Shown here: positions 109-12,493 of the stretch, in pieces
Layout: each line of letters starts with the position of its first letter
How positions within the stretch are numbered: position 1 is the stretch's first letter
NCBI GenBank assembly: GCA_018003015.1
Contig: JAGNEZ010000031.1
Span: 1-64,000, forward strand
DNA length: 64,000 nt
Source of the DNA: Phycisphaerae bacterium
GTDB taxonomy: Bacteria; Planctomycetota; Phycisphaerae; UBA1845; PWPN01
Direction of reading: 5' to 3'
The notes under the pieces: model-generated
Database searches by the model: none
What the model saw: only the letters and a program-made list of their open reading frames with translations
What the model was told of the DNA's origin: nothing
Program-made: the position numbers and the translations under genes

Positions 109-504
109 TTAGCGTTGTAGTACTAGTCGGCGCAGGCCGGTCTCATCCTCTGCCGTAGGGATGCCCACGGTGAGCTGGTCCCGAAACTCCTCGGCAAGCC
201 GCTTCTTCAGACGAAGGGCCGTCGCGTTGTCGATTTCCGTGTCCCGCTTGGTCAGGCTCATGGCCAGCCGGAGTTCTTCTTCCGGCAGCCGCTGCATCCC
301 CACGAGGAGTCGGCAGCAGTGGTCGTCACCACCAGCCCACCGCTCGACATAGGAGTCGATCAGCTTCCAGCCGCGCAGGTTGAAGTAGCCGACGCAGAAA
401 TCCGCCCGTTCAGAAACGCCCAGCGTGTCTCGCAACGCGGGCAGGAGATGCTCCTCGATGTTGTCCAGGATTCGTGGCAAGCGGGTAACCCTCTGGCGCC
501 CCAA
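109..504 (-). pseudogene. Truncated N-terminus of a PLD-type nuclease/helicase protein
   Basis: The 131-residue product has the opening typical of large SNF2/DEAD-type helicases with an N-terminal phospholipase-D-like domain: an [13 protein letters not shown] start, then [11 protein letters not shown] and a LLVGMQ strand. Those proteins are usually around 1000 residues; here the frame stops right after [11 protein letters not shown], before the first HxK catalytic motif could appear. The 108 bases to its left carry an open minus frame (ending in ADTILRIRP at the window edge) that does not resemble the missing part. I read this as a broken defence or repair helicase gene. The family assignment rests on remembered motif similarity and should be confirmed by a profile search. 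Confidence 0.55.
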
Positions 505-606: not shown

Positions 607-915
607 CTAACGGCCGGTTACCTCGTTTCTATGCAGCCGTCGGTTGCGGGCCCATGCAGCAGAAGCAATCCGTGAGGTCATAGGCCGGAAGAAGGACGCA
701 AGCCTTTGACGAACAGGCGTTTCCGTGCGATAGGTGGCCTTGGCAGCGAGACCCGGAGAGGCCCCTAGTGGATTGTCGATCCTTAGTGGCGTCGTGAAGC
801 GGGCAGCCGGATGCGGGTCGAGGAGTCCAACCCCAGCGAGGAGGCGGCTCAGGCCCCGCCGCCCGATGAGGACGGGGAACATCGCCGCTGAGAGCCGCAG
901 TTCACAGATCTTCAC
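607..915 (-). CDS. Doubtful 102-residue hypothetical
   Basis: This open frame begins inside the end of the zinc protein at 902-1258 (14-base overlap) and would be its downstream partner. The product is basic, starts MKICELRLSAAMFPVLIG and has no motif I recognise. Base composition does not separate it from a chance open frame in high-GC DNA. The rest of 505-901 shows nothing else coding-like. Confidence 0.2.
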   Translation of the reverse strand: MKICELRLSAAMFPVLIGRRGLSRLLAGVGLLDPHPAARFTTPLRIDNPLGASPGLAAKATYRTETPVRQRLASFFRPMTSRIASAAWARNRRLHRNEVTGR

Positions 916-1258
916 ACGCGGTCAGCGTATCCAGGATGCCGCTCAGTTCGCCAGTCTGGCCGCACCATGGGCAGGTCACGATGCGGCTCTTGCCATCCCA
1001 GCAAAACACCTTACCGCAGCCACATCGGAAGATGTTGGGATTGCCGCAATACGGGCATCCCTGGAAGGGGGAATCCAGCACGATCGACCCGGTGATTGCG
1101 GCCTGACCGTAGCCGCCGCGGTTCGTCACCGCCTCCGCCAGCGGGAAGGCTTCTATCGCCACCCACTTATTCCACCACTTCCGCTTGAACTTCAAGCCAA
1201 AGCCCTGTTTCGAGCCGGCACACCTGGCCATCACCATCATGACGTTCGGGGTACGCAC
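902..1258 (-). CDS. Stand-alone TerY-C type zinc-binding protein
   Basis: The 118-residue product carries two CxxC pairs, CPYCGN and CPWCGQ, flanking an FRCGCGKVFCW segment, preceded by a GYGQAAITGSIVLD stretch. This order matches the TerY-C metal-binding domain normally fused behind the vWA domain of TerY-like proteins in tellurium-resistance (Ter) type systems. Here it stands alone, while the vWA protein of the neighbouring operon (7635-8291) lacks such a tail, so the two may work together as split halves. The frame opens with GTG at 1258 behind a GAGAGG; ATG codons seven and eight codons further in (MMVM) are alternative starts. It is transcribed divergently from the main operon. Family call by eye. 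Confidence 0.6.
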   Translation of the reverse strand: MRTPNVMMVMARCAGSKQGFGLKFKRKWWNKWVAIEAFPLAEAVTNRGGYGQAAITGSIVLDSPFQGCPYCGNPNIFRCGCGKVFCWDGKSRIVTCPWCGQTGELSGILDTLTACEDL

Positions 1259-2023: not shown

Positions 2024-2470
2024 ATGCCGTATTCACCACCACCAGTTCGCCGCGTTCCCGTGACCCGGGAGACCGTCATCTCCGAGTTCACTCGTGGAGA
2101 CGGCAGCCAGAACACGCAAGGCAGTTTCACCAAGCAGACCGGCCCGGGCCCCGGCGTTGACGTGGATGTCGTGGTCGTGAATCAGAAGATCGAACTGGCC
2201 TGCGGCTGCTACTGGCCCGACGCCGAGGTTGCGGGCGTCTGCGCGGAATGTGCCAAGGAAGGCGATCGCCCGAACGTCTGCAAGACCCATTACTTCGTCT
2301 GCGCGTGCGGCACGGCTTGCTGCTGGAAGCACTCCTCACCTTGCGATGACGGAAAGACTCGGATCTGCACCCGCTGTCACCTTCGGGAACAAAACAAGGC
2401 GTTCAAGGCCGCCGTCACCGGCAAGCTGGCTCACGCAGCCCGCTGGCTCTTCTGGCAAGAAACTGGGTAA
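2024..2470 (+). CDS. Cys/His-rich zinc-binding protein
   Basis: 148 residues, start ATG 2024 behind GCGGAGGGA. The first 55 residues are polar and probably flexible. The core from about residue 58 to 122 is packed with ligands: ACGCYW, VCAEC, VCKTHYF, CACGTACCWKH and ICTRCH, enough for two or three zinc sites, reminiscent of B-box or treble-clef cross-brace modules. The C-terminal 25 residues (FKAAVTGKLAHAARWLFWQ) form an amphipathic helix that could touch the membrane. No named family is recognised. It precedes the HerA-type ATPase by 21 bases and may be its adaptor; that is inference. Confidence 0.6.
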   Translation: MPYSPPPVRRVPVTRETVISEFTRGDGSQNTQGSFTKQTGPGPGVDVDVVVVNQKIELACGCYWPDAEVAGVCAECAKEGDRPNVCKTHYFVCACGTACCWKHSSPCDDGKTRICTRCHLREQNKAFKAAVTGKLAHAARWLFWQETG

Positions 2471-2491: not shown

Positions 2492-4612
2492 ATGGACGTC
2501 ACGGACAACGATTGGCATCGCCTCCTTGGTCTTCAGCGACGTGCCGAGGCACTGGGGGCGCGCCGGGATCCCACCATCGACAGCTACCTCGGGCACCTGG
2601 AATTCGATCCCCGCAACCCTGCGCTGGCTGACCTGATCAGCACCTGGCTGGACGAGCACGAACAGGAGCAGCGTCTGGCCCCCAATCGGCTGGCGCCGCC
2701 GCCGGCCATCGAGGAGCTTTATGATCCCCAGATGCTGCCCGACTTCACCGTCGGTCAGACCACAGAAACAGGGGTGCTGTTCGGCCCGCGCCTAGCCGAC
2801 TGCGGGAGCATGGTGGTGACCGGGATTGCCGGCGGCGGCAAGACCTCGCTGGTTCAGAACATCGTGGCCCGGACCCACCGCTGCCTGCCCGGCGCGACCA
2901 CGCTGGCGTTCGACGTCAAGGGGGATTTCACCAACATGGCCTCCCTGCCGGGGTCGGCCATCCACGTGCACAAGGCCCGCGAGGAACTCAGGTTCCAGAT
3001 TCTCTCGCCGCCGGCGGGCGTGGCCCTGCAGGCCTGGCTGGCCACCGTGGCAGACTACTTCTGCGGATACCGCGGCCTGCAGAAATCCCGCCACCTGTTC
3101 CTGGACGCGACCCTCCGTTTGTGCCGGCACTTCGGTGTGGATCAGGATCCCACCAAACCGTGGCCCAGCTTGTTTAGTGTGCTTGATTACTTCGGACAAA
3201 TGCGCGGCCCCCGGTTCGGCAAGGAGGCCGAGTACAAGGCCAGCCTGGTGAACGAGTTGCGCGGACTGTTGGAGGATACGGGCTCGGTTTTTGACACCTC
3301 CGACGGCATCGACCTGGACACGCATCTGCTGTCACCCGGGGGCATTGCGGTCGTGCAACTGGATACGCTCCCAGTGTCTGCCCAGCAATTCATCATCAGC
3401 CTCTCCATCGAGCGGATTATCCGCACGCGTGCCGCCCGGAACATCCACAATGCCGGACTGGAGGTGCTGGTGGTGCTGGACGAGGCTCAACTGGTGCTGA
3501 GCCAGGCCGCTGACCGGGCCTCAACGAACGGCATCGCCCCCCTGGCCAACCAGTTGCTGCGTGCCCGGGAGACAGGGGTTGCCTTCCTGGTCGTCTCCCA
3601 CCTGCTGCCGGACATTTCCCGGGCAGTCCTCGCGGCGGCCAAGAGCATGTACGTGGTCGGCGGGCTGAGTGACGCCCTCAGCGTCGATGTCGCTGCCCGC
3701 ACACTGAATCTGCCGTACGAGGCCAAAACCATGATTCCCCGGCTGGGGAGAGGGCAGGCCCTGGTCCGCGAGATCGGCAAAGGCGGCACGTACACGGATG
3801 CCTTTCTCGTGGATCTGGATCCGCCCGAGCTGGTCAAGGATGCCATCGACGAGCCCACCCGCCAACGGCTGATGGCCCCCAAAAGGGCCACCTTCCCGGC
3901 GTCCCCTTCCAGGCCTTTGGCGGATTACCCGTCCCTGGTTGCGGAGCTCAACCTGCCCAAGCCGGCCCCGACGAACCCTTCCCCCACGTCGTCGACGGGC
4001 CCGTCGTTGACCCAGGATCAATATGATTTGCTGCTAGACTGCGCTCACCACAGGGATGACTGGATGAAAGAACGCCAGGCCCGGCTGAATATCCACAACT
4101 ACAAGATCCTGGAGAAACTCGCCCAGTCGCTGGCGGCCCAGGGTCTCCTGGTGGTGCACGAGATCCGACTGGGTTCGGCCAAGTACTCTTTCATGGAAGT
4201 AGCGGACTATGGATGGCAGACTCTCCAGCTCGCCAAGCCCCTGCATTACATCGGCCACGGCAGCTTCCTGCACACCGTTCTGATCAACCGGGTCTCGCGA
4301 TACCTCAGTGCACAGAACTGGTCGTATGTCCAGACCGAGTTTCGGATCGGCCAGAACCTTCACGCCGTCGACGTCTATGGCCGCAGTCCGGCCGGCGTCG
4401 CGACCGGTTTCGAGGTCACCCTGTCGCACTCCAACGTGGTGAGCAACGCCCTGAACTCGCTCGCGGTTCCCGGCGGCGTACAGGAGCTGTTCTTCCTGTG
4501 CCCGGTTACCAAGGATTGCAGAGCCGTGGAGGGTCTGCTGCAGCAGGACCCGCGCGTCGCTCCCTACCTCCCGCAGATCAAGACCTGCCGGATTGACCAA
4601 TTCACTTCCTGA
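2492..4612 (+). CDS. HerA/FtsK-type ATPase with C-terminal winged-helix and nuclease-like domain
   Basis: 706 residues. Residues 85-450 form a HerA/FtsK/VirD4-type motor: Walker A GIAGGGKTS at 111-119, a DVKGD strand at 141-145 typical of this superfamily, and Walker B LVVLDEA at 326-332. A Pro-rich linker (about 465-505) leads to a winged-helix-like segment (about 505-580), then a block from HTVLINRVSRYL (about 594) with acidic residues E616, D627 and E641-V-T643 arranged like a PD-(D/E)XK or replication-relaxation type domain. HerA-like motors pump or unwind DNA and often pair with nucleases; fusing both in one chain is notable. It is cytoplasmic. If the ExT triad replaces ExK, cleavage activity is uncertain. 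It sits 21 bases after the zinc protein in the same operon. Confidence 0.8.
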   Translation: MDVTDNDWHRLLGLQRRAEALGARRDPTIDSYLGHLEFDPRNPALADLISTWLDEHEQEQRLAPNRLAPPPAIEELYDPQMLPDFTVGQTTETGVLFGPRLADCGSMVVTGIAGGGKTSLVQNIVARTHRCLPGATTLAFDVKGDFTNMASLPGSAIHVHKAREELRFQILSPPAGVALQAWLATVADYFCGYRGLQKSRHLFLDATLRLCRHFGVDQDPTKPWPSLFSVLDYFGQMRGPRFGKEAEYKASLVNELRGLLEDTGSVFDTSDGIDLDTHLLSPGGIAVVQLDTLPVSAQQFIISLSIERIIRTRAARNIHNAGLEVLVVLDEAQLVLSQAADRASTNGIAPLANQLLRARETGVAFLVVSHLLPDISRAVLAAAKSMYVVGGLSDALSVDVAARTLNLPYEAKTMIPRLGRGQALVREIGKGGTYTDAFLVDLDPPELVKDAIDEPTRQRLMAPKRATFPASPSRPLADYPSLVAELNLPKPAPTNPSPTSSTGPSLTQDQYDLLLDCAHHRDDWMKERQARLNIHNYKILEKLAQSLAAQGLLVVHEIRLGSAKYSFMEVADYGWQTLQLAKPLHYIGHGSFLHTVLINRVSRYLSAQNWSYVQTEFRIGQNLHAVDVYGRSPAGVATGFEVTLSHSNVVSNALNSLAVPGGVQELFFLCPVTKDCRAVEGLLQQDPRVAPYLPQIKTCRIDQFTS

Positions 4613-4649: not shown

Positions 4650-5087
4650 ATGCGTAAGGGAGATGCCATGCGAGCGGCGAAGATCGTATTTCTCATTTGG
4701 TTGCTCTGCGAACTTGGTCTTTGGGTCCGCGGTGGCCAGGGCTTCTGCGTCATGGACACGCTGCCATTCGTCCAGAGGCCCCAGTCGCTTTCACCACACT
4801 ATGAGTGGTTGGCCGCGGGCGCCATTCTCATCGGGCTTTGGGGCTTCCTCATGTTGCCCCGCCCACAAGCCGCCGCGCAACAGACCCGTCGGTTCCGGTC
4901 CGAGCTCTTCCTGGTGCCCGCAACCATCATTGCCCTGGCCCTCGTAAGTGAGCGGTTGCACACCACGCTCAGCCTCACGGACCTGACCGGGGATCCGAAC
5001 CGGGCCATCGAGCATCGTCACCTCGCGATCCTGTGTCTGTGCGTCTACGCGGCACTGTTGGCCATCAAGGCCTTGCGGAACCGGTAA
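4650..5087 (+). CDS. Polytopic membrane protein of the cargo operon
   Basis: 145 residues from ATG 4650, chosen for the TGAGGGG ribosome site six bases upstream; an in-frame ATG at 4668 (MRAAKIVFLIWLL) is an alternative. About four hydrophobic segments are visible: IVFLIWLLCELGLWV, LAAGAILIGLWGFLML, LFLVPATIIALALV and LAILCLCVYAALLAIKAL. No catalytic motif and no family recognised. With the 54-residue membrane peptide and the J-like protein it gives this operon three membrane components, so the system probably assembles at the inner membrane. Confidence 0.6.
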   Translation: MRKGDAMRAAKIVFLIWLLCELGLWVRGGQGFCVMDTLPFVQRPQSLSPHYEWLAAGAILIGLWGFLMLPRPQAAAQQTRRFRSELFLVPATIIALALVSERLHTTLSLTDLTGDPNRAIEHRHLAILCLCVYAALLAIKALRNR

Positions 5088-5118: not shown

Positions 5119-6018
5119 ATGCGAAATCCATTCAACGGCAAGAAAAAGCCGGACTCACCCATGGAGGGCAGACCGCCCCCTCGCGGAAGGCCGGCTGACC
5201 ATCCGGCATCTCCAGGCGTACCGGACGGCGCCAAAGCCGGTGATCACCGCGGCCAGGTGGGCTTGCCTGGTGGTGAAACAATGCCCGCGCCGCCGCTCGC
5301 AGACGCCGGCGTGCTGGATGGTCTGGCTGCGCTCGTTGTTCAGCGGCTGGAACAGCACGTTGCCTGCCACGTGCAGCGCGTGGCGGATGAACTCGTCGAA
5401 CTTCTCCTGCAGCATGGGCCTCCAGGGGAGGACCAGATCAGCCTAGCCGCCCAGAAGATAGGAGAGGACCTGGCCCGCTTGATCGACGGGCATGCCTGCG
5501 AGCTGCAGACCGCCATCACCCAACGCCTGGAAGCCCTGCCCGCTCGGCTCAGCGAATGCCTGACCCAGATCTCGGCGGAGCACTGGACCGCAATTGGCTC
5601 CCAGTTGGCCGAGGCGGCTTTGACAGCCAACCGTCAGGCCGCTCTGCGGCCGGTGATCGACCAGTCGCTGGCGCTGCTGGACCGCATTCACGACGAAGGT
5701 GAGTTCCTGGCTACCGGGTATCACCGGAATCCCGAGCTGGCGTTGCACCTGGGGTCCCGTCAGCTCTTCGAGACGTACGACGCGGCGGTCCGGTCGTTCG
5801 TCACCGAGATCTTCATGATCCTGCGTACGCTCGATGTCCACCCGATCCAAGGGTCTGCCGGGCCCTTCAATCCCCAGTTACAGCGCGTCGTGGGAGTCGA
5901 GCGTACGTCCAAACCGGAACTGGACGGGCATGTGGCTCGAATCGTCCGTGTCGGCGTGACCTGGAACGGCGCCGTATTTCGTCACGAGCAGGTCATTGTT
6001 TTCAAGAAGGAGTGCTGA
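5119..6018 (+). CDS. GrpE-like nucleotide exchange factor with long N-terminal extension
   Basis: 299 residues, ATG 5119 with GGAGG 8 bases before it. The first 60 residues are Pro/Gly-rich and likely disordered. Residues about 65-190 are helical and could form the long coiled-coil of GrpE (RPVIDQSLALLDRIHD at 177-192 resembles the GrpE segment before the head). The last 65 residues, with GPFNPQLQRVVGVERT, HVARIVRVGVTWNG and VFRHEQVIVFKK, follow the pattern of the GrpE beta-wing head (F-D/N-P-x-H-x-A-V ... G-Y/W ... R-x-A-x-V-x-V). GrpE drives ADP release from Hsp70. It lies two bases before the Hsp70 start, as expected for a dedicated partner. Sequence is divergent, so the call depends on pattern and context together. 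Confidence 0.65.
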   Translation: MRNPFNGKKKPDSPMEGRPPPRGRPADHPASPGVPDGAKAGDHRGQVGLPGGETMPAPPLADAGVLDGLAALVVQRLEQHVACHVQRVADELVELLLQHGPPGEDQISLAAQKIGEDLARLIDGHACELQTAITQRLEALPARLSECLTQISAEHWTAIGSQLAEAALTANRQAALRPVIDQSLALLDRIHDEGEFLATGYHRNPELALHLGSRQLFETYDAAVRSFVTEIFMILRTLDVHPIQGSAGPFNPQLQRVVGVERTSKPELDGHVARIVRVGVTWNGAVFRHEQVIVFKKEC

Positions 6019-7634: not shown

Positions 7635-8291
7635 ATGATCCTCAAGAACAGTTATCTCGAACAAGTAGCTCGCGGACTGATCAAACTCACGCCTACGCAG
7701 GCGAAATCCACAGCCGCCATCCTGAACGAGTTCCTCCTGGTCCTCCTGGACTGCTCGGGCAGCATGAACGAGGAGTGCGGTCGCACGCACCGCCTGGGTG
7801 CGGCTCAGGACGCCATCCTCCGACTGCTGGACACGCGGCGGGCTCTCAAGGCCGATGACCAGATTGCCGTCATCGCCTTCCACGACGACGCCCACCTCGT
7901 CCTGCCCCCGACGCGATGCAGAGACCATGGTTCGACGATCGAGAAAGCGATCCGATCGATCACCGGCGGGGGCGGCACGAGCCTGGCGGTGCCCCTGATC
8001 CTGGCCGGCACGATCGTACCGGGCAGCGGAGCGGCTCACATCGTGATGCTCTCGGACGGCCATGGCGGCGACCCCACGAGTGCGGCCGACAAGCTCAAGC
8101 GGCGGGGAGCGATTATCGAGACGATCGGCGTGGGCAACGATCCTGCAGAGGTAGCCGAGGATTACTTAAGAGCGGCTGCGAGTGTCCTCAACGGCAAGGT
8201 GCTCTACCGGTTCATCACCGACGCGGACGAGATGTCGCACTATTTCCGCACGGAGATCGCCAATCGGCTGGTGTATCGGAGCAAGTCATGA
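7635..8291 (+). CDS. vWA-domain protein with intact MIDAS
   Basis: 218 residues, essentially one von Willebrand A domain. The metal site is complete: D39-x-S41-x-S43 in LLDCSGSMNE, T115 in GGGGTSLAV and D141 in MLSDGHGG. There is no signal peptide and no C-terminal zinc tail, unlike TerY-type vWA proteins; such a zinc module is encoded separately at 902-1258. MIDAS vWA proteins bind a partner through Mg2+ and a partner acid, and often act as the scaffold of phosphorylation- or chaperone-linked signalling systems. The gene overlaps the J-like gene (ATGA at 8288-8291), so both are made together. Its role as adaptor between the chaperone and the ATPase is inference. Confidence 0.85.
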   Translation: MILKNSYLEQVARGLIKLTPTQAKSTAAILNEFLLVLLDCSGSMNEECGRTHRLGAAQDAILRLLDTRRALKADDQIAVIAFHDDAHLVLPPTRCRDHGSTIEKAIRSITGGGGTSLAVPLILAGTIVPGSGAAHIVMLSDGHGGDPTSAADKLKRRGAIIETIGVGNDPAEVAEDYLRAAASVLNGKVLYRFITDADEMSHYFRTEIANRLVYRSKS

Positions 8292-8839: not shown

Positions 8840-9091
8840 ATGGAACGACCCGTTAACCAGCAACCGCTGGCCAGTAAGCAGTTCGATCGCGTCCACGTTG
8901 CGATCTGGCCTCAGGAAAAGAAGGAGAACGATAACGGGGGCCGGCTCTGGTTCAGCGTCGGCATCACCCGCCGCTACCAGGACGGCAGCGGGCAATGGCA
9001 ATCCTCGAACCACTACACAGCCCGGGACCTCCCGCACCTGCAGCTCGCGGTCCAGTGGGCCATGCGCGAGCTCCTCCTGAAGGAGGAGTAG
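8840..9091 (+). CDS. Small mobile-element accessory protein
   Basis: 83 residues from ATG 8840, with TAGGAG 8 bases upstream. The core has an alternating beta pattern, VHVAIWPQEKKENDNGGRLW then FSVGITRRYQDGSG and SSNHYTARDLPHL, ending in a helix. I recall similar short proteins of the form I-x-A-x-I-W ... F-x-V-x-x-x-R-x-Y-x-D-G upstream of replication genes in planctomycete integrated elements, but no function is known to me. The fold suggests a small nucleic-acid-binding protein. It lies after the hairpin and before the primase-type ATPase, so it belongs to the replication/maintenance module. Confidence 0.6.
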   Translation: MERPVNQQPLASKQFDRVHVAIWPQEKKENDNGGRLWFSVGITRRYQDGSGQWQSSNHYTARDLPHLQLAVQWAMRELLLKEE

Positions 9092-9138: not shown

Positions 9139-10854
9139 ATGGCAAGGACAAACCAAGAGGCAGACGCCTCTGGCGGAAACCGTGCGGTGAAAACGGTGCC
9201 GCAGCTTCGCTCCACCGACAGATCGGCTCTCGGCCTGGGGGGCATATCCATCGCACAGGCCACGAGTGATGCCATCGCATCCTCCCCAATCGAGCTCGCA
9301 CAGGTTGCCCGGCCACGATTCCCTGCTGCCGGGGAAGAAGCTGGCGGGACAGAAGTCTGTCGGCCGCAGTTGTTCTTCCATCCCGAGGTGGCTGGCCTGA
9401 CGGAGACAGCCCTCACGCATCTCGGCGGAAAACCCTTCGTGATGTGGTCTCAGTACCTGCAGTGGTCCGATGGCCGGCGCGAGGTCCGGCCGTTGTTGGA
9501 GATGCTGGACCTGCCCAACGGCGGTCGGCTCTGGTTCGAGCCCCGACCCGGTGCACCGCAACCCGGCTTGGCACCGCACTGGAGCACCGTGGGCCGTAAG
9601 CAATGGCTGGAGGGTAAAACCCCAGATGCGGCAGGGCTGTTCCATTGCCTCTCCGAGACGATACGCCGTTTCGTGGTGCTTCCTGATGAGGATGCCGCGG
9701 GCGCCTGTGCCACAGTGGCGTTGTGGACCATGCTCACGTACTGCTTTCCGGCTTGGCCGGCCGTACCCTATCTCCACATCACGGGACCGCTGGGCAGCGG
9801 CAAGACCCGGCTACTGGAGGTCCTTTCGCGGCTGGTCTGGCGTCCCACGCTGGCCAGTTCGCTGACCGCCGGGGTGCTTTACCGAACCCTGCATGAGAGT
9901 GGGGGCACGTTCCTGCTCGATGAGAACGAGCGTCTGGCCGAGAAGGGTTCCCAGGCCTCCGAGCTGCGGACCGCGCTTCTGGCCGGCTACAAAGCCGGGG
10001 GGCATGTCCACCGCCTTCAAAAAGACGGTGATGGTTTTCGCGCCGTCCAGTTCGATGTTTACGGCCCCAAGGCGATGGGGAGCATCGGTGATCTCCCGCC
10101 TGCCCTCGCCAGCCGTTGTATCCAGTTGAGAATGCTGCGGGCCCGTGGGGACCATTCCCAGGTACAGGCACGATTGGATGCTGATCCTGAGGTGTGGCAG
10201 GGGCTCCGCGACGATCTGCACGCCTTTACATTGACCCACGCCGGTGAGATCGTGCGTGTGGCCAGAGCCCAGGACGAGTTGACCCGGACGATGAGTGGCC
10301 GTGACGCGGAACTGTGGCGGCCGCTGTTCGCCCTGGCCGTTATCTGCGAACGAGCCAGCGCTGTGGGTCTCGTTTCCGGCCTGCGTGAATTCGCCGGTCG
10401 AGCCGTCGATATCGGTCTTGAAGACGCTGCCCCCGAGCCGGACGAAACGCTCCTGACCGTGCTGGCCGAGTGCGTCATCTGGCAGCAGACCGACGTGACG
10501 CCGAAAGACGTCCTTGAGCGTGCGAAGAAGACCGATCCTGTGACGTTCTCGCGCTGGACGCCGCACCGCGTGGCCAGCGTACTGAAGCGGTATGGCGTGC
10601 TCACCCACAAGACCGGCGGTGGTCGGCGGTCATACCACCGGGTTACGGTCCAGCAGCTCTCCCGAGTCGCGTCGAGGTACGGTCTGTGCATACCGCTTGA
10701 AAATGCCCCTATCGCCACAAATGCCACCTGGGCCCCTCCGAACGCCCGCCGCAGCGACGTCAGCCCGTCGTCCGCTCTTTCCGCGAGTGGCGATGGTGGC
10801 AATGGTGGCGGCCCTGGAGGAACAGGTGGTGGTGCTCAAGCTGATGTATGTTGA
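9139..10854 (+). CDS. P-loop ATPase of primase/helicase type (element replication)
   Basis: 571 residues from ATG 9139 (GAGGTGGG upstream); an ATG at 9100 behind AAGGAGGAG is an alternative that would add 13 residues. Walker A GPLGSGKT is at 216-223 and a Walker B-like TFLLDENE at about 257-264, followed by SELRTALLAGYKAG, a sensor-like segment (DLPPALASRCIQLRM) and a winged-helix-like C-terminal part (WTPHRVASVLKRYGVL). The layout resembles DUF3631/DUF927-type primase-helicase proteins found in phages and integrated elements. The tail is Gly/Ser-rich. It probably supports replication or excision of the element. No primase polymerase motif is visible in the first 200 residues, so it may act with a separate primase or only as a helicase. 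Confidence 0.7.
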   Translation: MARTNQEADASGGNRAVKTVPQLRSTDRSALGLGGISIAQATSDAIASSPIELAQVARPRFPAAGEEAGGTEVCRPQLFFHPEVAGLTETALTHLGGKPFVMWSQYLQWSDGRREVRPLLEMLDLPNGGRLWFEPRPGAPQPGLAPHWSTVGRKQWLEGKTPDAAGLFHCLSETIRRFVVLPDEDAAGACATVALWTMLTYCFPAWPAVPYLHITGPLGSGKTRLLEVLSRLVWRPTLASSLTAGVLYRTLHESGGTFLLDENERLAEKGSQASELRTALLAGYKAGGHVHRLQKDGDGFRAVQFDVYGPKAMGSIGDLPPALASRCIQLRMLRARGDHSQVQARLDADPEVWQGLRDDLHAFTLTHAGEIVRVARAQDELTRTMSGRDAELWRPLFALAVICERASAVGLVSGLREFAGRAVDIGLEDAAPEPDETLLTVLAECVIWQQTDVTPKDVLERAKKTDPVTFSRWTPHRVASVLKRYGVLTHKTGGGRRSYHRVTVQQLSRVASRYGLCIPLENAPIATNATWAPPNARRSDVSPSSALSASGDGGNGGGPGGTGGGAQADVC

Positions 10855-11043: not shown

Positions 11044-11343
11044 ATGACTGACTCTGTTACCATCAAGGTCTCCGAGGCCGCCAAGCGAATCGGGTGCAGC
11101 ACGCGCACAATTCTCAGGCTGATCGAAGCTGGGAAGTTGCGTGCCGTCCAGCTTTGTGGCGAGCGGGGGCCTTACTATGTCTTTGTCGAGTCCATCGATC
11201 GGCTTCTTGGGATTCAGGAAGCGCGGCGGCGGAAGTCTCAGGAATACTACTGTCGACAGGCGGAGCTTGCAGCGGCGAGGGCAGGGCTCGGGCCACCCGG
11301 GCGGCCTGGGGATCGCGCACCTGAGCGTACACTTGGGTCGTAG
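11044..11343 (+). CDS. xis: Excisionase-like MerR/HTH_17 protein
   Basis: 99 residues. The first 60 residues form a classic excisionase winged helix: TIKVSEAAKRIGCSTRTILR, LIEAGKLRAVQL, then YYVFVESIDRLL. Such proteins bind att-arm DNA and steer the integrase toward excision. The gene converges on and overlaps the 3' part of the integrase gene by 230 bases (11114-11343) on opposite strands. The well-formed HTH lies in 11044-11220 and the overlapping part is low-complexity on both strands, so one of the two tails may be an extension without function. The symbol is given for role only. Confidence 0.75.
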   Translation: MTDSVTIKVSEAAKRIGCSTRTILRLIEAGKLRAVQLCGERGPYYVFVESIDRLLGIQEARRRKSQEYYCRQAELAAARAGLGPPGRPGDRAPERTLGS

Positions 11344-12310
11344 AAAGGTGTTTGTGTCCGAGGTGTTTCTGCAACACATCCAGTTCGACACCTGCCTCGC
11401 GAGCACTCTGGGCGTAAGTGTGTCGCAATGCGTACCCTCCTGTGATGCCTCGACGGCGGAGAATGGACCGCAAGCCGTTCGGTTTGTAGGGGCGGCCGAA
11501 CCGGTTGAGGAAAACGTACACGCCGACTCGCGGCTGATCCCGCAAGATCTCGACTGCGGCGGGGGTGAGGTAGAGGATACGGTCCTGGCCCGTAGACTCC
11601 TCTGTCTTGTGTTCGGCCAAGCGGCAGGTCCATCCCTCCAGGTCAACGTGCGACCATTTGAGCTGACACGCCTCCCCGGGTCGGCAACCAACGTTCACGA
11701 TGAATCGGCAGATTGGTGATGATCGCTTCGGCAGATCGGCAAAGGCTTCACGGAGTCTCGGCCGTGCCACGTCTCGATACAGTTTCCTCGGGGGAGGAAT
11801 GTCGTCCGGACGTCTTGGAATCACGTCCAGCCACCGACGGGGGGGCTCCGCTGCCCAGACGAGAACGGCGTGGGCGAGGCCGATCATCGTCCGCAGGTTC
11901 TTTGCCGAGTACTCAAACTTCTTCTTCCGAGCGTTCGGGATCTTGCCGTGCTGATCTGGCGTGCGCTTCTGGTAGACCCTCGTGTATCCCGTCTTGCGGA
12001 GGTGGGCGAGGAAGTCAACGAGATGCTCTTCGTTCAGTTCAGCGAGCCGCATGCCTCCAGCGAACCGGTTCCACGGGATCAACCGCTCTCGCTTCCAGTC
12101 GGTTCCGTTCTTGACGAGCCACTGCTCGATCGCTTGGGCGATGGTCTCGGCTTCGCCCAGGTGAGCGGGCTTCCCCAGGAACTGCTCAGCCCTTCTTGCC
12201 GCTTCGGCCCAATTTCCTTTCCCACTGCACAGGTATTTCTTCTCGTAGTTGACGTAGATGTACCACTGGTTCCGCTTCTCCTCGTAGTGGGGTTGGGCCT
12301 GTCGTGGCAT
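11114..12310 (-). CDS. int: Tyrosine recombinase (element integrase)
   Basis: 398 residues, ATG 12310 with AGGAGG upstream. An N-terminal SAM-like core-binding region (about 55-150) is followed by the catalytic domain: R210 in GCRPGEACQLKW, K235 in EHKTE, Y293-A-L-R296 where most family members have HxxR, H319 in LGHKH, and the nucleophile Y328 in TTQVYAQV. All catalytic residues except the first His of HxxR are present. The last 60 residues after the nucleophile are low-complexity and lie over the opposing excisionase gene. The gene reads away from tRNA-Pro, 108 bases from its 3' end, which identifies that tRNA as the attachment site. Confidence 0.92.
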   Translation of the reverse strand: MPRQAQPHYEEKRNQWYIYVNYEKKYLCSGKGNWAEAARRAEQFLGKPAHLGEAETIAQAIEQWLVKNGTDWKRERLIPWNRFAGGMRLAELNEEHLVDFLAHLRKTGYTRVYQKRTPDQHGKIPNARKKKFEYSAKNLRTMIGLAHAVLVWAAEPPRRWLDVIPRRPDDIPPPRKLYRDVARPRLREAFADLPKRSSPICRFIVNVGCRPGEACQLKWSHVDLEGWTCRLAEHKTEESTGQDRILYLTPAAVEILRDQPRVGVYVFLNRFGRPYKPNGLRSILRRRGITGGYALRHTYAQSAREAGVELDVLQKHLGHKHLSTTQVYAQVRDPQAARVARALPSPLQAPPVDSSIPETSAAALPESQEADRWTRQRHSKAPARHKAGRHATSQLRSA

Positions 12311-12418: not shown

Positions 12419-12493
12419 TCGGGGCGACTGGATTTGAACCAGCGGCCTCCTGGTCCCAAACCAGGCGCTCTAGCCAGGCTGAGCTACGCCCCG
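12419..12493 (-). tRNA. tRNA-Pro (anticodon TGG)
   Basis: Read on the minus strand the 75-base sequence folds as a complete cloverleaf: acceptor CGGGGCG / CGCCCCG, T8-A9, D stem GCTC/GAGC, anticodon stem CCTGG/CCAGG with loop TTTGGGA (anticodon TGG), five-base variable loop and T stem GCTGG/CCAGT with loop TTCAAAT. Discriminator is A. The 3' CCA is not encoded. Insertion of the element has left the gene intact, so the element must carry a copy of the tRNA 3' end. Confidence 0.96.

Follow-up and report, generated by a model that had tools for sequence, protein, structure and literature searches.

The protein encoded at positions 2492-4612 of the window, the stretch of 64,000 nucleotides from a Phycisphaerae bacterium contig (JAGNEZ010000031.1) that was analysed here, combines in a single chain of 706 amino acids an FtsK/HerA-superfamily ATPase, a MarR-like winged helix and a domain with the PD-(D/E)XK nuclease fold. 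Many Phycisphaerae elements share a modular operon centred on its gene, a context that the initial annotation of this DNA could not see. It is somewhat probable that this protein serves as the core that handles DNA in a predicted anti-invader (conflict) system on an integrated mobile element, a reading suggested by module types like those of published conflict systems (PMC7159879, PMC11090510) and by neighbours of immune type. The features of the locus are gathered in Table 1.

Table 1. Features of the motor gene and of its surroundings, in window coordinates.
Feature	Position	Strand	Evidence
706-aa protein: FtsK/HerA-superfamily ATPase, linker, MarR-like winged helix (wHTH), PD-(D/E)XK-fold domain	2492..4612	+	ORF, Pfam DUF87, family alignment, AlphaFold2 (AF2) model of C-terminus
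Walker A GIAGGGKT (aa 111-118)	2822..2845	+	translation; Lys invariant in 27 aligned relatives
Walker B strand VLVVLDEAQ (aa 325-333; D330/E331)	3464..3490	+	translation, family alignment
Pro-rich low-confidence linker (aa ~456-504)	3857..4003	+	sequence; full-length model pLDDT <50 at 417-502
MarR-like winged helix (aa ~506-583)	4007..4240	+	AF2 pLDDT mostly >90; VIA Z 11.8 to 3bpx
PD-(D/E)XK-fold domain (aa 590-706): H594, E616, D627, E641; T643 at the Lys position	4259..4609	+	AF2, 1y88, 2vld/5gke, conservation
TerY_C metal-binding domain protein, stand-alone, upstream of motor operon	902..1258	-	Pfam TerY_C 5.3e-11
Small conserved gene of the element family, ~130 aa	1429..1848	+	homologues upstream in L051, L052, L054, L055, L069
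Zinc-finger-like gene, CxxC..CxxCGxxxCxxH..CxxC-type pattern; start 2024 or 2060	2024..2470	+	aligned in 12 loci
Small membrane-protein gene downstream of motor; position common to relatives' small TM genes	4650..5087	+	gene call, phmmer grouping
GrpE-like protein	5281..6018	+	Pfam GrpE 1e-4, below cut-off; relative L056 1e-10
Hsp70, DnaK-like, 513 aa	6021..7562	+	Pfam HSP70 1.3e-109
von Willebrand factor A (vWA) protein, MIDAS start DCSGS	7635..8291	+	Pfam VWA_2 8e-17; motif
J-domain-like protein, predicted C-terminal TM segment	8288..8731	+	gene call; phmmer groups it with same-position L059, L068 genes
Tyrosine integrase beside tRNA-Pro	11114..12310	-	sequence; groups with relatives' integrases
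tRNA-Pro (tgg)	12419-12493	-	tRNA prediction

The frame of the motor gene, read from an ATG start, is open as annotated initially, and its codon-usage score of 188, obtained with the simple script used for the gene calls, is the highest of the first 20 kb, the overlapping frames scoring far lower. Pfam, the translation and the AF2 model agree with the Walker A/B domains, Pro-rich linker and winged-helix-like segment that had been read in one chain, and their fusion to a PD-(D/E)XK-like domain is borne out by the DUF87 profile, the AF2 model and the matches to MarR proteins, 1y88 and 2vld. Regarding the motor, amino acids 108-308 match the Pfam family DUF87, 'HerA central domain', with 32.4 bits over a cut-off of 23.2, both GIAGGGKT and LDE being intact; in the family alignment the Walker A/B motifs and R359 are conserved, and the Walker motif is kept in 27 aligned relatives. 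The NCBIfam HerA equivalog gave 14.3 bits for a cut-off of 800 and no HAS-barrel was matched by Pfam in the 706-aa protein at E up to 1, thus membership of the FtsK/HerA superfamily is correct and the strict name HerA is not. Similarly, Pfam scans of the neighbouring genes in the window gave no NurA match with E up to 1. The full-length AF2 model is poor, with a pLDDT of 63 that is too weak for a fold search and with the Pro-rich stretch modelled at low confidence (disordered). By its type, the ATPase would be expected to form a ring and to translocate double-stranded DNA.

The C-terminal part (aa 501-706), modelled by AF2 with four relatives, reached a pLDDT of 90.7. In a VIA structure search, the first ~80 residues of this model matched the MarR protein 3bpx (Z 11.8, 79 residues, rmsd 2.5), possessing the three helices and beta wing of MarR-like winged helices, and MarR proteins were also matched by profile. 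The last domain follows in the AF2 model the alpha-beta-beta-beta-alpha-beta order of the PD-(D/E)XK core, matching AF1548 (1y88) over aa 593-706 (VIA; Z 10.3, 103 residues, rmsd 2.8) and, by structure search, NucS/EndoMS (2vld with E 8.5e-4, and also 5gke). As the VIA list is filled by MarR matches to model residues 1-82, other matches to the nuclease part are under-sampled. At the level of sequence, searching the PDB with the window protein or with a C-terminal profile of five rows gave no match; a profile of 24 C-termini matched 1y88 (E 0.002), MarR proteins, Cas4 and Hjc, and a profile of eight proteins from the stand-alone relatives (see below) matched 1y88 and Cas4, the EIKTG of Cas4 being aligned under the EIETG of the family. 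Sequence and structure agree on a PD-(D/E)XK fold, although the sequence E-values are modest.

When 397 genomes from the class of the window were searched at E 1e-25 with a family profile built from the window protein and four relatives, 52 were matched, many of them over the whole three-domain protein; at the stricter E 1e-40, the profile matched 10 of 392 genomes across the phylum, a value not directly comparable with the former. The weaker matches may be confined to the motor. The three-domain fusion is a family and not a one-off, and the named records of the relatives are Phycisphaerae or Planctomycetota assemblies. Most genomes of the relatives are drafts, and their locus contexts (labelled L here) are often cut by contig ends, as is the left end of the window itself. 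Close relatives were found neither by a single-protein scan of genome contigs nor by tblastn of the window protein in plasmids and phages, and scans of viral contigs gave none, therefore there is no evidence of carriage by phages. Weak plasmid matches to the motor were not counted as examples of the same architecture, the three records inspected showing proteins of ~1000 aa in other contexts. In a tree of 27 proteins, the stand-alone group forms one clade (100/100), and the window motor joins the clade of the PP2C-kinase and tubulin loci (100/99) yet carries the Hsp70 module of a separate clade, so that at least one module exchange on the motor backbone is likely; L066 and L067 have long branches and an unsure placement. 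Comparing independent profiles, the C-terminus of the window clade aligned over nearly its whole length with that of the stand-alone clade (hhalign 99.2%, E 1.8e-19) and with that of the Hsp70 clade (E 3.8e-15). L019 and L057 encode the motor and the nuclease-fold domain in two genes lying side by side, suggesting that both work together. Meanwhile, a second copy in the window's own genome (L002/L020) lacks the last domain, and the motor gene at L073:10001-11814 (= L069) is spread over three frames, being a decayed copy or a product of sequence errors.

The zinc-finger-like gene lies directly upstream of the motor gene in the window, as it does in most relatives, and two neighbour proteins match the FYVE zinc finger of Pfam. 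The TerY_C domain, which stands alone upstream of the operon, is as a rule joined to a vWA protein in Ter systems. Beyond the J-domain-like gene, an 83-aa protein (8840-9091, +) belongs to a small family of ~88 aa that recurs in many related elements, and a 571-aa protein (9139-10854, +) with a Walker-A-like GPLGSGKT and no Pfam match at E 0.01 may serve the element as an ATPase of replication or primase type. The tRNA-Pro next to the tyrosine integrase is likely the insertion site; attachment sites were not found, because the contig begins inside the element and the only near genome copy of the tRNA-Pro 3' end is another tRNA-Pro gene. Near the contig edge, a short frame at 109-504 (-), with its stop at 109 and no Pfam match, is possibly a broken gene, which we take to resemble the N-terminus of a PLD/SNF2-type protein. 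PADLOC reported no complete defence system, its matches being only at the level of the motor (mad8, HerA) or of the kinase, and holds no model for this set of genes.

Outside the stand-alone clade, the motor genes belong to elements, an integrase or recombinase being close by in most cases, and are combined with exchangeable modules of the types GrpE-Hsp70-vWA(-DnaJ), present in the window, PP2C-kinase(-vWA), vWA-tubulin-E1, or E2-based. A vWA, Hsp70, GrpE, PP2C or tubulin module is present close to the motor in 16 of the 18 non-stand-alone loci vs none of the nine stand-alone loci (Fisher p 1.2e-5, a descriptive value, the loci having been gathered by similarity), and in the remaining two, L052 and L069, there is a prokaryotic E2 gene. 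Among the 16, the stretch read shows GrpE alone for L060 and just PP2C with kinase for L051; the lone kinase gene near L017 and L062 was not counted as a module. When Pfam was applied to 104 neighbours, VWA (8), HSP70 (7), GrpE (6), ThiF (4), FHA (4), PP2C_2 (4), kinase (2) and Prok-E2_E (2) were obtained, while Tubulin_2 in L054 and L019 falls just under the cut-off and the L016 gene is joined to both only by phmmer. The full vWA-PP2C-kinase module is seen in L013, L055 and L066. In L069 (11197-11810) the E2-family gene is next to a short frame that looks beta-grasp-like by eye, and in L052 (7733-9601) the E2 gene is accompanied by a ThiF/E1 gene beside the motor gene; both sets are a ubiquitin-type module. 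Regarding neighbours of immune type, for which the module-linked loci alone were searched, STAND/NACHT-type NTPase genes are found near the operons of L014, L051, L053, L054, L055 and L069, a TPR-S protein in L059 and an HD-CE in L016. In addition, cas3, cas5, cas7 and further cas-like genes lie directly beside the Hsp70-type motor locus L068 (13481-19702).

The positions of the putative active site are preserved beyond chance, as D627 never varies among 24 relatives, most of which share 15-40% identity, and as the same set conserves E616 and H594 at ≥90%. The translation and the alignment place E616, D627, E641 and T643 exactly where they had been reported, and the Thr in place of Lys is confirmed, T643 falling in the catalytic-Lys column of Cas4 and AF1548 in the profile alignments. 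Thus, neither of the findings that had been named as fatal to a nuclease-like domain was encountered, the acidic cluster being present and the last domain matching nucleases. Nevertheless, the triad of active PD-(D/E)XK enzymes, D and (D/E)-x-K, is incomplete in the window, where D627 and E641 are followed by Thr instead of Lys. At this site the motif reads E-x-[T/C/V/I] in all eight proteins of the window clade, Lys occurring in none; the T643 column holds Glu in the eight stand-alone proteins that retain the domain, giving a D...E-x-E arrangement that resembles BamHI, and in the Hsp70 clade, of the same architecture, the motif is Q/N-x-G in 6/6, with E641 lost. Module-linked proteins outside those clades show E-x-E (L016), Q-x-E (L019) and, in the split gene of L057, E-V-E, so site loss and module presence do not strictly go together. 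As no window-clade protein has Lys at the T643 column, the window copy is, judging from its sequence, most likely a pseudonuclease that kept the acidic residues and lost catalysis. In the stand-alone relatives, the last domain probably acts as a nuclease, its site being D...E-x-E.

A working fused motor-nuclease, as initially considered, would require the last domain of the window protein to cut through E616, D627 and E641 together with a displaced lysine, K674, or another group. All three acidic residues are retained, K674 is one column off a K/R found in all seven clade relatives, the stand-alone relatives keep their D...E-x-E, and the HerA ATPase and nuclease of HerA-DUF4297 act as one anti-phage complex (PMC11291478); however, the substitutions at the Lys position throughout the clade, the Gly that replaces E616 in clade member L053 and the absence of E641 from the whole sister clade make cleavage by the window protein improbable. 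Even less credit, to the point of being very improbable, is given to a relative of the replication-relaxation proteins (wHTH plus nuclease-like domain) acting in replication of the element and fused to a motor, the other fold that had been considered for this region. The best viral fold matches are Bacillus phage proteins of 274-283 aa with a winged helix and a nuclease-like domain (A7KUX4, G3MBL2, S5M4M0; E down to 5e-7, TMq up to 0.53), which we take to be members of that family. Against this likeness of fold, none of the 24 C-termini matched the replication-relaxation family of Pfam at E up to 0.1, and the profile matches go to Mrr/AF1548, Cas4 and Hjc.

Since an integrase or recombinase is present at the majority of loci, the main rival is a motor for transfer or segregation, pumping the element's own double-stranded DNA between cells or at division, as TraB does in Streptomyces and TdtA in Thermus, the winged helix recognising element-specific repeats and the chaperone/vWA and STAND genes being cargo. 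The tRNA-Pro adjoining the window's integrase fits this proposal, and an element that has an integrase as well as a DNA pump could employ the latter to transfer itself; TdtA itself is an FtsK-HerA-family ATPase of an integrated element, found with a NurA-like nuclease and needed for DNA donation (PMC5365140). Small TM genes come after the motor gene, and one of the weaker plasmid motor matches (L088) is beside relaxase and coupling-protein genes. Transfer is still regarded as rather unlikely, since the module genes are located inside the motor operon and are swapped one for another, which would be odd for random cargo, since no relaxase or type IV secretion family is among the 25 of 40 families listed for the 104 neighbours, and since the STAND, HD-CE, TPR-S and cas genes nearby speak for immunity.

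For the anti-invader core that is preferred here, the two C-terminal domains, winged helix and PD-(D/E)XK fold, would engage DNA or DNA ends, and the latter domain, having lost its Lys/Glu position in the window, would most likely bind DNA without cutting it. The motor core may then report to the co-encoded GrpE-Hsp70-vWA-DnaJ module, which would act or signal, the action step being performed in sister loci by a PP2C-kinase(-vWA), vWA-tubulin-E1 or E2-based module instead. It is more tentatively proposed that these loci form a class of immune system, carried by elements of Phycisphaerae and so far undescribed, in which the core of motor, winged helix and (pseudo)nuclease plays the part of the GAP1-N2 GTPase and swaps chaperone, phospho-signalling, tubulin-E1 or E2 modules, its nuclease domain possibly having turned into a DNA sensor once the modules took over the output. 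If this is true, one core protein would link the HerA/FtsK DNA-capture systems with the vWA-chaperone, tubulin and kinase systems, so far described apart, and would offer a natural series of one nuclease fold, from intact (E-x-E) through degenerate (E-x-T) to dead (Q/N-x-G), under a constant architecture. With such a series one could test which of the two, cleavage of DNA by the core or action of the module, is the output.

Pairs of HerA and nuclease as separate proteins, HerA-NurA and HerA-DUF4297 (PMC11291478), are already known, as are HerA/FtsK capture systems (PMC12839542), while the literature search, of partial coverage and thus a weak negative, gave no description of a fused three-domain core with exchangeable vWA/chaperone modules. 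The pairs (PMC11291478, PMC12977600) share with the present family an ATPase of the HerA family and a nuclease; unlike them, the components are here in one chain, apart from the split genes of L019 and L057, with a winged helix in between and no HAS-barrel detected. In the HerA/FtsK anti-invader and BREX-related capture systems, a motor, a fast-evolving wHTH and a nuclease have been proposed to capture and process invading DNA (PMC12839542). The same three components are found here, but the nuclease fold belongs to the motor chain and is often degenerate, the partners are modules of chaperone/vWA type, and no PglZ, DUF4007 or DUF6079 was seen at the present loci.

TerY-P triads of vWA, PP2C and kinase accompany restriction systems, and some CoCoNuTs carry FtsK/HerA ATPases and inactivated PD-(D/E)XK folds (PMC11090510). 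The three loci with a full vWA-PP2C-kinase module and the TerY_C protein of the window are reminiscent of them; in contrast, no McrB/McrC was seen here, and the motor is of DUF87 type with fused wHTH and nuclease fold. Regarding the last domain, the fold is shared with AF1548 (1y88), NucS/EndoMS (2vld, 5gke), Cas4 and Hjc, differing in the replacement of the catalytic Lys by Thr in the window and by Glu in the stand-alone relatives. As described by Kaur et al. (2020; PMC7159879), tubulin plus vWA, Hsp70 plus GrpE plus DnaJ, and kinase plus PP2C plus vWA alternate around GAP1-N2 GTPases. The present loci have an E2-based module besides, and no GAP1 or GTPase is among the 25 of 40 families listed for their 104 neighbours, the position of the core being held by a HerA-type motor with wHTH and PD-(D/E)XK fold; in both, the same three kinds of module are exchanged around a conserved core, with STAND-type genes nearby.
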